NCBI GenBank assembly: GCA_026027325.1
Contig: JAMSLZ010000010.1
Location: forward strand, 744,001 to 808,000
Origin: Actinomucor elegans
Taxonomy: Eukaryota > Mucoromycota > Mucoromycetes > Mucorales > Mucoraceae
Direction: 5' to 3'
DNA length: 64,000 nt
The notes beneath the pieces were generated by a model that worked only from the letters and a program-made list of their open reading frames with translations, had not been told where the DNA came from and searched no databases. The translations under genes were made by a program, and so were the position numbers. Below, piece by piece: positions 34,475 through 41,327 of the stretch. Every line of letters begins with the position of its first letter. The stretch's first letter is position 1.

Positions 34475-37400
34475 CTACGACCGCGGCAGTAAGCCTATAG
34501 TGGCAGATTTCGTGTTTGGTTCACTGGATAATGTGTTTTTCTCTGGTGCAGACTGGCCTTGATCCCACACGGAAGCGACTGTCTGAGTAAACGTATGAAT
34601 GGAAGCTTCCAGCTCTTCCTTTCGAATAGGTTTACTGACATACCCGTTCATGCCTGCTTCAAAACATTTTTCTCTATCACCAGCCATCACGCAAGCCGTC
34701 AGAGCAATGATATAAGGCTGTACTGCTGATGTTGAGAGCTCCTTTCGGATTTTTTCGGTAGCTTCCAGCCCATTCATCTCTGGCATCCAAATATCCATGA
34801 AAACCAAATCAAAAGGCCTTAAATGTTGTTCTTGTGCTATGATATCGCAAGCCTCTCGACCATTGTTTGCTGTTATCGAAGCTATCCCGATTTGAGTCAG
34901 CATACGCGATAAAACCTTCAAATTGACAGGATTGTCATCAACTATCAATGTTTTGATGGATGCAAAGTTTAGCAGTTCGCTTTCTGAACCTGCAGACTGA
35001 TGATCGGCATTATAAATCGATAGATGATCTGTCGCTTGGGCTACTTGATGTTGAGATTCTTGTCTTATCAAGGTTGAAATAGAGGAACTGACGGACGAAA
35101 TTCTCTGTTTTCTTGGAGTTGGAGGGGTTTTTTCGTTTGGAAAGAATAGGCCATGCAATGTACTGAGTAATCTGGAATTTTTAAATGGCTTGGCTATACA
35201 TGCATGGAGAGCGTTATTGCGTTCTTCAAGAACATTATCTATCGAAACAGCTGAGTCAGCAACTGGAGCTTCCATTATATTCTCTTTTTTAGGTGTAGGG
35301 TCTGAGTCTCTTGTTCCTTGAAAAGGCGAGGTAGTCGAAGAAGTGTATTCGGATTGAGTTACTTCAGAAAAACGTCGCTTGCTTTTCTTCATCCGACTAT
35401 CTACGACACACAACGTAGGAACTCCTTTGATACGACTGTCCATGTTTTGAAGCTTTTCCAAGACCATATAGCTAGTCGTAGCAGAAGAATCGCCTATTAT
35501 AGCAAAGTCCATATCTACAATAATGATCGAATAATGACTTTTCCAATTTGAAGCCATATTATATTGCTTCAAATGCTGTAAAGCCTCTTCTTGGTTCATG
35601 AAAGAGATATTGGATATACCAATGTTTTGGAGCAACGAAGTCCATTTCAATCTCTCGGTTTCTTGTTCTACAATCACTAGCGGTCGAGGACAGGCGTTTA
35701 CTAAACGAGATAAATTATTTTCCTCACCATATGTATTGGAGCCAGTCTGCTTTTGTAAGTCAATCTTGAAATAAAATGTAGACCCTTTTCCTTCTTCTGA
35801 TTCTACCCACTAGTTGTACAAGATGTTGTAGTCTTATTGGTTCCAAAAAGGTGATTTTAGTCCTTACCATATCACCGTTCATCATCTTGCAAAGCTTCCT
35901 ACTAATAGCTAAACCTAAACCTATGGATAAACGAGCTGATAAGCGCTCTGGGCACATAAAACTATTTTTTTTTTCATTTAGTACCTGTTCCTCCATAATT
36001 TCTTGTCGTTGATGCATCCACTTGAGAGAAAGATTTGAACAGTTTCTTAGCCTTGGCTTGTGGTATACCTATACCTGTATCTCTAACCGAAAACAAATAA
36101 CTTTTTATTGCAGTGAGTTCTGTTTGTTCATCTGGAAGCATAGGACTCTGAGGAATATGCGGTGTGTCTGGAGGATACTCTACTAACGGAGATGGATTTT
36201 CTATAGCAGTAAGAAGATTTGGGTGATATGGTATTACTGATATGTATACATATCCATTCTGAGTGAACTTGAACGCGTTGGATAATCTTTTTTTGGTGGT
36301 AAATATATCATCTACAACAAGTTGTTAAATCACTTACAAGTTTAATAGAATCTGTCGAAGCCGAACAAGATCTCCTAATACATGGATTGGAAGCTCAGGC
36401 GCTATATTATACCAGAGCGTTATACCTTTGCTCAAATAGTTGGATGAAAGTAGCTTCATTGCACTTTCAATCACATATGTCTATTGTTACCATTAGAGCC
36501 TAAATTATTATGAACTGAGTCTACTGTTTACCAAGTCAAGCATGCTTCTTTCAAGAGTCAGTTTTCCAGATTCGATCTTAGAATAGTCCAAGATATCGTC
36601 AATCAAGGCCATCAGATGATTTCCTGCATTTTCTATTGTTTCAGCGCAATCGTAAAGATCTGAAGGAAGATCGCTTTCCATTAAAGTACGTGACATGCCA
36701 ATCACTGCATTCATAGGTGTTCGAATCTCATGGGACATGTTTGCTAAAAAGCTTTGTTTTGATGCTGCAGCACGTTCAGCAACTTCCTTTGCGTATTTCA
36801 AATCTATATACAAAATCAGTGGATACGCTGCTCATATTGAACCATTAGAATGCACTTCACGTACCTTTTAATAACGCTTCTGTTCTCGCTCTTTCTTCTT
36901 CTAGCTCAATTGTTCTCTGTTGAAGATTTATTGTACGCTTCTTCACCAAGTTTTCCATATCATTGGCGTATTTCTCAAGCTGAAAAAAAGGGGGTGAGAA
37001 CGAACTATTAGGCCTAAGTCTAAGCTATAACTGTAGTTACCAGAATAGCCATATTATCCACAACAGAATCAGAGCAGCAGAAGTAAGGATCCAGCTCTTC
37101 TACTCGATGCTATTGAATAAAGGTTAAATTTTTCCTTTGAATTATCTTGATTGTAGTTACCCCAATAGTAGTAAAGGAAGGCCTAGCAAAAGCGTTTTTC
37201 TGCAAGCAATCCGCAACAATAGAGTTCATTCCAGCTGTAAATCCGTCTTGACCAGGCGGCTGCAAACGCGGTCTCAAATCCTGCTCGCATACTTGCTTGT
37301 AAATGAGTTCTGGACTAAGGTTCTGCTGATCTAACTGCGTAGCATATGGTTTCTCTCGTGTCAATATTTCATTAATAATAATACCAGCGCTTTATGTAGA

Positions 37401-40400: not shown

Positions 40401-41327
40401 TCACCACCCACATCAAAGAATGCGGTTGCTACATGTAAGTTTGGATAAGACTTTTTGATACTAAGCATAGCTGATGCTACAATATCTGCACATGTCTATT
40501 GCAAATAATTTGGTATTAAAATACTGCGTTTAATTAATGATTTTAATACACTTACTGATCCACCTAATGATACAATTGAATCAAATGCTCCAGGAGATTG
40601 AAGAAATACATCGCGTACAAGTTTATCTAACGAAGAAGACGAGTTGGCTGATTCAACTAGATCCAAAAGAGCAGGCCTTCTTCCTATGGCATTTTGTATT
40701 CCTAACCTTCGATATTCGCTTGCACGTTTGTCAAAGGACTTGAGCTGTACCGCTAAAGGTCGTGTAAAGTTACCATAAGCCAAGTTTTCACCAATCATCA
40801 ACCCAGCTTCCATATCATCTTGCAATACGCTTGTCAGTCCTAGTGTTTTGGCGTATTCCAAGCCTGAATTGAATACAATAACGGGTACTTTCTTATTGAG
40901 TGCGTATTGGATAGCTCCAAGTACTTTTTCGTTAGGTATAGATGAGACAATACCATCAATGCCCTGTTAAACACACTAGTTTAGTACATTGTAAGCGCAC
41001 ATCTAAAAGATACTATACATTATCTACTGCGTTTCGGATATCTTTGACCATGGTGGATTCTGACGCGGTTAAATATCTATTCCATTCTACATCGACATCA
41101 ACCATGTTTGCAGCATCGCGTGAGCCTTGCTCAGGATTATGGAAAAAAGTGGCCATGGCAGAATCATGCGATACAAATGCAATGCGTGGCCTCTTCTTTT
41201 GAGTTGTTATTGTAGTAGAAATTCCACATGAGGGTAAGCTAAACTTTTCCTCCAATTGTTGGCAAAAAATTAGGGGACATTGTAATATCAAAGCTACTAG
41301 GATGAAGCTGCTCCTTATTAACTTCAT
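34475..41327 (-). CDS. Receptor hybrid histidine kinase with receptor-guanylyl-cyclase-like pseudokinase
   Basis: Nineteen exons on the minus strand: 41327-41019, 40963-40556, 40495-40301, 40239-39994, 39936-39740, 39684-39351, 39291-39188, 39126-38206, 38151-37992, 37934-37836, 37776-37461, 37389-37161, 37109-37041, 36979-36865, 36803-36532, 36480-36338, 36286-35985, 35920-35868 and 35809-34475. The product has about 1,935 residues. Signal peptide (1-22); two periplasmic-binding/sugar-binding-like regions (about 45-590); Cys-rich segment with CxxC pairs (about 638-715); transmembrane helix (about 732-754). Pseudokinase (about 870-1173): HRD becomes '[10 protein letters not shown]', DFG becomes 'SNYG', with 'WLAPEA' and 'SDIYSAGIII'. 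Signalling helix '[17 protein letters not shown]' (about 1195-1235). HisKA '[14 protein letters not shown]' (His about 1259), N-box '[11 protein letters not shown]', G-boxes 'DTGIGIP' and 'GGTGLGLAIS'. Degenerate receiver, then canonical receiver with 'VDDNPVN', '[10 protein letters not shown]' (Asp about 1830) and 'SKPI'. Exon 38151-37992 is one base short of phase. Confidence 0.9.
37433..37457 (+). repeat. A25 homopolymer inside a receptor intron
   Basis: On the coding (minus) strand this is a T25 run starting four bases into the intron after the 'SDIY' exon (donor at 37460). Confidence 0.9.

Follow-up and report, generated by a model that had tools for sequence, protein, structure and literature searches.

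Within a 64,000-nucleotide stretch of the Actinomucor elegans genome (contig JAMSLZ010000010.1, positions 744,001 to 808,000; hereafter the window) lies a gene whose predicted product is a single-pass surface hybrid histidine kinase, with a sensing and transmitting half of the receptor guanylyl cyclase type and, behind it, the output half typical of hybrid histidine kinases. Together with the mechanism and the single-fusion origin proposed below, we hold this reading at a probability of about 0.72. The domain order, the kinship of the pseudokinase and of the helix that follows it and the placement of the phosphorelay residues can all be read from the sequence. The surrounding genome measures 36.5 Mb in 27 contigs, and the nearest protein relatives of the receptor are from Mucorales. 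Database proteins are referred to below by our own handles (P0001 and so on).

Domain order of the receptor and integrity of its gene

The minus strand from 41327 to 34475 reads as one 19-exon gene, running from an ATG at 41327 to a stop at 34475, and its open frame, joined across 18 GT-AG introns of 51-107 nucleotides, encodes 1,917 amino acids (Table 1). A sequence-only reading made earlier had proposed the coordinates and domain order of this gene, and both were confirmed by exon joining, Pfam and hydropathy; the motifs that it quoted are present, with YHGHLTS at residue 985, SNYG at 1005 and LEKYANDME at 1179. Applied to the joined product, Pfam returned the modules that had been claimed, namely Peripla_BP_4 (two stretches), Pkinase, PK_Tyr_Ser-Thr, HisKA, HATPase_c and Response_reg. 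The same scan of the product found no class III cyclase domain (PF00211), no HAMP, no GAF or AAA family (at E 1) and, with Peripla_BP_4 in its place, no ANF_receptor. Hydropathy gives a signal-like N terminus (residues 1-26) and a single internal membrane helix, from which a single-pass protein with an extracellular N terminus is predicted, and the sequence carries the hybrid-histidine-kinase hallmarks, namely HisKA with its His, HATPase_c and a receiver with its Asp.

The ectodomain had been described as one binding-protein-like unit. The fold type stands but the number does not, as the two Peripla_BP_4 stretches mark two domains. The first matches sugar-binding proteins (Peripla_BP_4 type) in both fold and sequence; its PDB matches to RecA fusions have no significant stretch. 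The second corresponds to a second alpha/beta domain at residues 367-633 of the P0009 model; its sequence had no binding-protein match in PDB, the sole match being thyroglobulin, which aligns to the stalk. Matches to the first domain took up the whole of the ectodomain model's fold listings. The stalk region (residues 638-716) holds nine cysteines, and at the stalk Ephrin_rec_like scores above the cut-off in the relatives P0128 and P0136.

Receivers, in the plural, had likewise been placed after the HATPase. Pfam finds one, and the stretch preceding it is a degenerate receiver that Pfam misses; in the P0129 model five strands lie at residues 666-820, between the HATPase and the true receiver. 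The same order, DHp-CA-degenerate receiver-true receiver, is that of ShkA from Caulobacter, which is without the membrane receptor half and without a pseudokinase. ShkA is the top Foldseek match of the P0129 cytoplasmic model (6qrj, E 9e-26).

One exon calls for caution. Near 38151-38110, in the exon encoding the N-lobe of the pseudokinase, there is one shift of reading frame in comparison with relatives, and the frame, if read straight through, ends ahead of the histidine kinase. A bypass intron (38216-38110) keeps the remainder in frame but costs the first N-lobe strands. The change may be an assembly error, the mark of a decaying gene or an unusual splice, and it stands as a caveat on the window copy. 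Should that copy be decaying or mis-assembled, the family would be real but this gene would give no full receptor, which we consider unlikely though far from negligible. The frame change itself speaks for such damage, as does the length of the bypass intron, at 107 nucleotides against 51-71 for the other 17. The remaining exons, however, are all open, HisKA, HATPase and receiver retain their catalytic motifs, and the modules are 59-83% identical to those of Mucor bainieri P0001, except for the degenerate receiver (40.5%); moreover, the N-lobe exon reads through in relatives and in a second receptor gene of this genome.

Kinship of the pseudokinase and the signalling helix

Judged by PDB scores, by a profile built from fungal sequences only and by two trees, the pseudokinase is of the receptor guanylyl cyclase type, and the earlier claim that it matches the kinase-homology domain of these receptors is upheld. 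Atrial natriuretic peptide receptor 1 heads the PDB matches of the kinase-helix stretch with 130 bits (E 8e-37), followed by guanylyl cyclase C at 70 bits, the best other kinase reaching 55; P0144, from Modicella (Mortierellomycotina), gives 143 bits in an alignment that extends into the helix, where other protein kinases reach 60 bits at most. When the Mucor stretch was used to search the database (2,898 candidates; E 1e-5 or better, a cut-off of our own), 46 proteins came back, made up of 43 fungal proteins and 3 animal receptor cyclases with no other kinase, and a search with the P0144 stretch (3,726 candidates; E 0.001) returned 65, of which 34 were counted as fungal, 25 are receptor cyclases and 6 are other kinases. 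The fungal-only kinase profile, built on 67 of 72 fungal rows with the helix removed, gives all 28 receptor cyclases 85.7-158.6 bits, whereas none of the 11 other kinases exceeds 69.1 bits, these 11 being the kinases returned by the searches and not a full kinome.

Two trees were built from the kinase columns, one of 53 rows (26 of the 73 fungal rows, 19 of the 28 receptor cyclases and 8 other kinases) and one of 46, in which 7 long-branched rows of the 53 were left out. Both unite the fungi (99/91 and 100/99, respectively) and both join the fungi and the receptor cyclases against the other kinases sampled (98/99 and 100/99). The arrangement of fungi as sister of the receptor cyclases in the 46-row tree is without support (56/0), and in the 53-row tree two rows on long branches, P0203 and P0214, are the neighbours of the fungi (83/60). 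P0214 carries the label Nk52, which we take to mean the ichthyosporean Chromosphaera; it would then be the receptor cyclase of a unicellular animal relative.

It is highly improbable, in our judgement, that the domain is a generic tyrosine-kinase-like pseudokinase, as in group X or XVI hybrid kinases, that came to resemble receptor cyclases by convergence. Such an origin would suit the Pfam names, which are only PK_Tyr_Ser-Thr and Pkinase, and the fold, which ties with RIPK and BRAF kinases, though the fold comparison has no power to separate these families, RIP2K, BRAF, ITK and GC-A all tying. Scores, profile and trees, in contrast, favour the receptor cyclases throughout, and the sequence of the linker helix is of their type. 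Group X and XVI hybrid kinases are cytosolic and carry GAF and ATPase regions. They too have a kinase-like domain ahead of a hybrid histidine kinase (PMC8510515). The Halteromyces kinase P0027, which has such a GAF/AAA make-up (PF01590, PF13191), whatever its group, reaches only 17 bits against the fungal pseudokinase profile. The distinction drawn earlier between this receptor and fungal kinases with GAF regions is thus sustained, and membership of group X or XVI was rejected on the scores, the profile and the trees.

The kinase-like domain probably no longer phosphorylates. In the window copy HRD is replaced by HGH and DFG by NYG, which places Asn at the DFG Asp. The HRD Asp is found in none of 26 Mucorales rows (P0153, from Gongronella, counted among them), 20 of which keep the DFG Asp; among the Mortierellomycotina-type rows the HRD Asp is present in 21 of 44 (18 of 40 leaving out four rows placed by similarity), Gly takes the place of the DFG Asp in 40 of 44 and Arg that of the beta-3 Lys in 28 of 44. 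HGNLRSSNC, retained in rows such as P0152, is near the HGNLKSSNC of P0155 and P0156.

Behind the pseudokinase, the helix of many fungal rows aligns where the animal protein P0155 has MMEKYANNLEDLVEERT. A helix profile made from 20 of the 28 receptor cyclases gives the 72 fungal rows scored (of 73) a median of 21 bits, with a maximum of 37.2 and a minimum of -3.8; of 111 other proteins, mostly histidine kinases, 63 scored, at most at 9.2 bits. The profile separates the fungal rows from the other proteins scored, as the proposal of a receptor-cyclase-type linker would have it, and a generic histidine-kinase signalling helix was rejected. Measured up to the conserved LL, the helix is equally long in Piromyces, in animal receptor cyclases and in P0214, whereas in the Mucorales proteins P0001 and P0123 it is seven residues, or one heptad, longer. 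In 60 of the 64 fungal rows that have both motifs (73 examined), 62 residues separate the helix motif from the phospho-acceptor box; three rows have 76, two heptads more, and P0002 has 79, its model probably retaining an intron. In P0152, repeated QARTADL heptads add two heptads to the helix, making it a natural coil-length variant. A single helix (residues 320-408) spans the linker and the first DHp helix in the P0129 model, His390 included, at a model confidence (pLDDT) of about 63-73. The output module seems to be joined in register at the helix end, and a helix-to-histidine spacing that is constant or changed by whole heptads fits mechanical transmission through one coil, which suggests that the signal may pass by a turning or shifting of that coil.

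With the receptor guanylyl cyclases (NPR-A/GC-A, Gyc76C and Gyc32E) the fungal receptor has in common a binding-protein-type ectodomain, a single membrane helix, a pseudokinase with an HG-type catalytic loop and a signalling helix of the same type. It differs in its ectodomain, which is a tandem of Peripla_BP_4 where the cyclases have ANF_receptor, and in its output, which is HisKA-HATPase-receiver instead of a class III cyclase. In Sln1, the ectodomain sits between two membrane helices. Kinases of the Sln1 type (group VI) resemble the receptor as membrane hybrid histidine kinases with a signalling helix before the DHp and a C-terminal receiver, but Sln1 has HAMP, according to a 2006 survey of signalling helices (PMC1592074), and lacks a pseudokinase, whereas the fungal receptor has one membrane helix and binding-protein domains.

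Relatives and the origin of the fusion

The fungal family comprises 73 database proteins, 64 of them with kinase and HisKA in one model and 48 listing Peripla_BP_4, and a cyclase or ANF_receptor domain is listed in none of the 73. The family tables give domain content only, and the order is taken from the spacing count and the alignments. Members come from Mucorales, from Mortierellomycotina and, with two Neocallimastigomycota-type rows, from Piromyces finnis (P0187) and P0186; five of the 73 rows (P0158, P0160, P0164, P0174 and P0186) were counted as fungal by similarity. The core of the architecture thus recurs in other Mucorales and in Mortierellomycotina. The suggestion that the system is lineage-specific fares less well, as P. 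finnis also has the pseudokinase-helix-histidine-kinase part, which contradicts a restriction to Mucorales and their nearest kin. Pfam finds no ectodomain family in either P0186 or P0187. Within the A. elegans genome a second gene of the same order lies at C21:2483818-2490461, its highest summed score among five relatives compared being with P0128 (Parasitella). Among the matches scored, 24 of 45 candidates, no genes other than these two receptor genes contain the pseudokinase part. Five relatives (P0002, P0004, P0009, P0165 and P0180) are listed in databases as guanylate cyclase or RGC protein kinase and none of them lists a cyclase domain; the guanylate-cyclase labels probably follow from the pseudokinase.

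Two adjacent genes, a receptor and a histidine kinase, might have been joined by eye, and some of the database models, P0009 and P0129 for example, are indeed broken up or incomplete. We nevertheless rejected this as very unlikely, because only 61 nucleotides separate the helix exon from the last pseudokinase exon on one side and from the HisKA exon on the other and because the core is conserved, with kinase and HisKA held at near-constant spacing in the single-model relatives and the whole order repeated in the second gene.

A 48-row tree of the histidine-kinase core sets the three fungal groups on one side of a branch (98/83). It leaves out 22 rows of a quicker 70-row tree (22 fungal rows and 48 of the 111 other proteins, 59 of which have a readable core of suitable length), which did not settle the grouping of the fungal family. 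In both module trees Neocallimastigomycota branch first, then Mortierellomycotina and Mucorales. Each of the two modules, kinase and histidine kinase, brings these fungi together in its tree, which makes a single ancient fusion likely; it most likely preceded the parting of the Neocallimastigomycota line from that of Mucorales and Mortierellomycotina; the distant fungal relatives suggest that the combination of receptor and phosphorelay is old. The closest outside neighbour of the family's histidine-kinase core is P0010, a PAS hybrid kinase with HPt encoded on a 15-kb contig (49% identity over 15% of the query).

We see a rather small chance that pseudokinase and histidine kinase were instead united repeatedly, or that the pseudokinase-helix unit reached fungi by transfer from animals and was afterwards handed on between fungal groups. 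The Neocallimastigomycota-type rows number only two, their histidine-kinase core sits on a long branch that the quick tree failed to place, the branching between receptor cyclases and fungi is not settled by the 46-row tree, and the nearest outside core, that of P0010, belongs to a protein with PAS domains. Against this, the two modules give the same branching order, the histidine-kinase cores fall together, and the fungal pseudokinases form one clade, which neither kinase tree nests within animals with support. A single fusion is our preferred account. The output-domain swap proposed in the sequence-only reading holds in so far as HisKA-HATPase-receiver occupies the position of the cyclase. 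The trees do not polarise it, because the pseudokinases of fungi and animals are placed as sisters by an unsupported node; the two kinds of receptor may be sister branches.

Directly upstream of the receptor, a short open frame (41324-41494, minus strand) ends in a TGA that overlaps the receptor ATG (ATGA); it could possibly tune translation, or be there by chance. Among the neighbours of the receptor, seven of ten open frames scanned are given with their Pfam assignments in Table 1.

Table 1. Features of the receptor gene and its neighbours (positions in the window; residues of the joined product)
Feature	Position	Strand	Basis
Whole receptor gene, hybrid histidine kinase	34475..41327	-	exon joining (bypass intron 38110-38216 used), Pfam, full-length relatives
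Predicted signal sequence, about residues 1-22	41262..41327	-	hydropathy alone
Binding-protein domain 1, residues 49-308, sugar-binding-protein type	40228..41183	-	
Binding-protein domain 2, about residues 350-640, more divergent	39000..40104	-	second Peripla_BP_4 stretch; P0009 model
Cys-rich stalk, residues 653-716; Cys 653, 666, 669, 683, 686, 699, 702, 716	38772..38963	-	
Single membrane helix, residues 729-755	38655..38735	-	hydropathy; long helix 744-792 in P0009 model
Start of N-lobe beta-3 strand exon; one frame change relative to relatives	38110..38151	-	
Alternative 107-nucleotide GT-AG intron skipping the frame change	38110..38216	-	inferred from sequence
Receptor-guanylyl-cyclase-type pseudokinase, residues 906-1154	37164..38097	-	Pfam, PDB scores, profile, trees, motifs
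Signalling helix, pseudokinase to DHp helix, residues 1170-1240	36733..37067	-	helix profile; P0129 model
HisKA/DHp, residues 1232-1296; phospho-acceptor His1241 at 36732-36730	36565..36759	-	Pfam
HATPase_c, residues 1343-1492; N, G1 and G2 boxes present	35753..36375	-	Pfam, motifs
Degenerate receiver, about residues 1525-1700	35129..35656	-	P0129 model, Foldseek; missed by Pfam
Receiver, residues 1761-1877; phospho-acceptor Asp1812 at 34795-34793	34598..34948	-	Pfam
PLAA-family ubiquitin binding	32261-32989		Pfam
Weak Myb (below cut-off)	41851-42495		Pfam
Myosin	46477-47301		Pfam
Kinesin	28078-28767		Pfam
Leucine-rich repeats	23889-25847		Pfam
NmrA-like	59848-60732		Pfam
Vac14	61514-63223		Pfam

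Proposed mechanism and implications

We propose that binding-protein domain 1 would close on a small ligand, for which a sugar or polyol is the likeliest candidate, that the dimer would then rearrange and that the change would travel through the Cys stalk and the single membrane helix to the pseudokinase. The pseudokinase, probably non-phosphorylating, would clamp the coiled coil, and its release would turn the coil and so set the autophosphorylation of His1241, because coil and first DHp helix form one continuous helix in the model. Phosphate would pass from His1241 to Asp1812, on to an HPt protein and then to response regulators. One HPt match and 20 receiver matches, a number of the latter being exons of one gene, are present in the genome, so that a His-Asp-His-Asp relay is available; the two PF00211 cyclase matches of the genome lie on other contigs. 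The unit of pseudokinase and helix would be the transmitter in common with holozoan receptor cyclases, fused to a histidine kinase most likely once, before the split described above. Elsewhere in the genome, PF01094 (ANF_receptor) matches at C1:2185302-2187988, C1:2468283-2470602 and C9:69712-72110, each near 7tm_3 matches (some below the cut-off), and these are three genes like those of class C G-protein-coupled receptors.

The same 2006 survey, in the part available, finds the helix after a serine/threonine kinase domain only in animal receptor guanylyl cyclases and describes all fungal signalling helices as Sln1-like (PMC1592074), and the available part of another report credits fungi with no receptor-kinase-like architectures besides hybrid histidine kinases (PMC6733946). 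Unprecedented membrane hybrid kinases are mentioned for early-diverging fungi in PMC5285503; periplasmic, guanyl and protein kinase are absent from its text, and its Figure 2 (Mortierella, Umbelopsis) may already draw relatives of the receptor. The accessible parts of PMC8510515, PMC6944256 and PMC4965123 do not mention this domain order, and none of the terms looked for is present in PMC4133162. No description of the architecture was found in the literature searched, key papers lying outside that search.

We would give even odds to a broader proposal, that one receptor, present in the common ancestor of fungi and animals, gave rise both to the animal receptor guanylyl cyclases and to the receptor seen in fungi. 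Its pseudokinase and helix would have formed a portable transmitter, to which Holozoa attached a cyclase and fungi a histidine kinase at the conserved LL end. If this is true, reception of the receptor-cyclase type was present outside animals and operates through a phosphorelay.

The natriuretic-peptide-type unit of pseudokinase and signalling helix is so far known from work in which a cyclase follows it. The receptor described here would represent a natural domain swap, with the same transmitter and another output, through which two questions become directly testable: what the pseudokinase does alone, and whether receptors of the receptor-cyclase type predate animals. Early-diverging fungi would also gain a class of candidate surface receptors, with two members in the A. 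elegans genome; part of this class is entered in databases under guanylate cyclases (e.g. P0002, P0004 and P0180).

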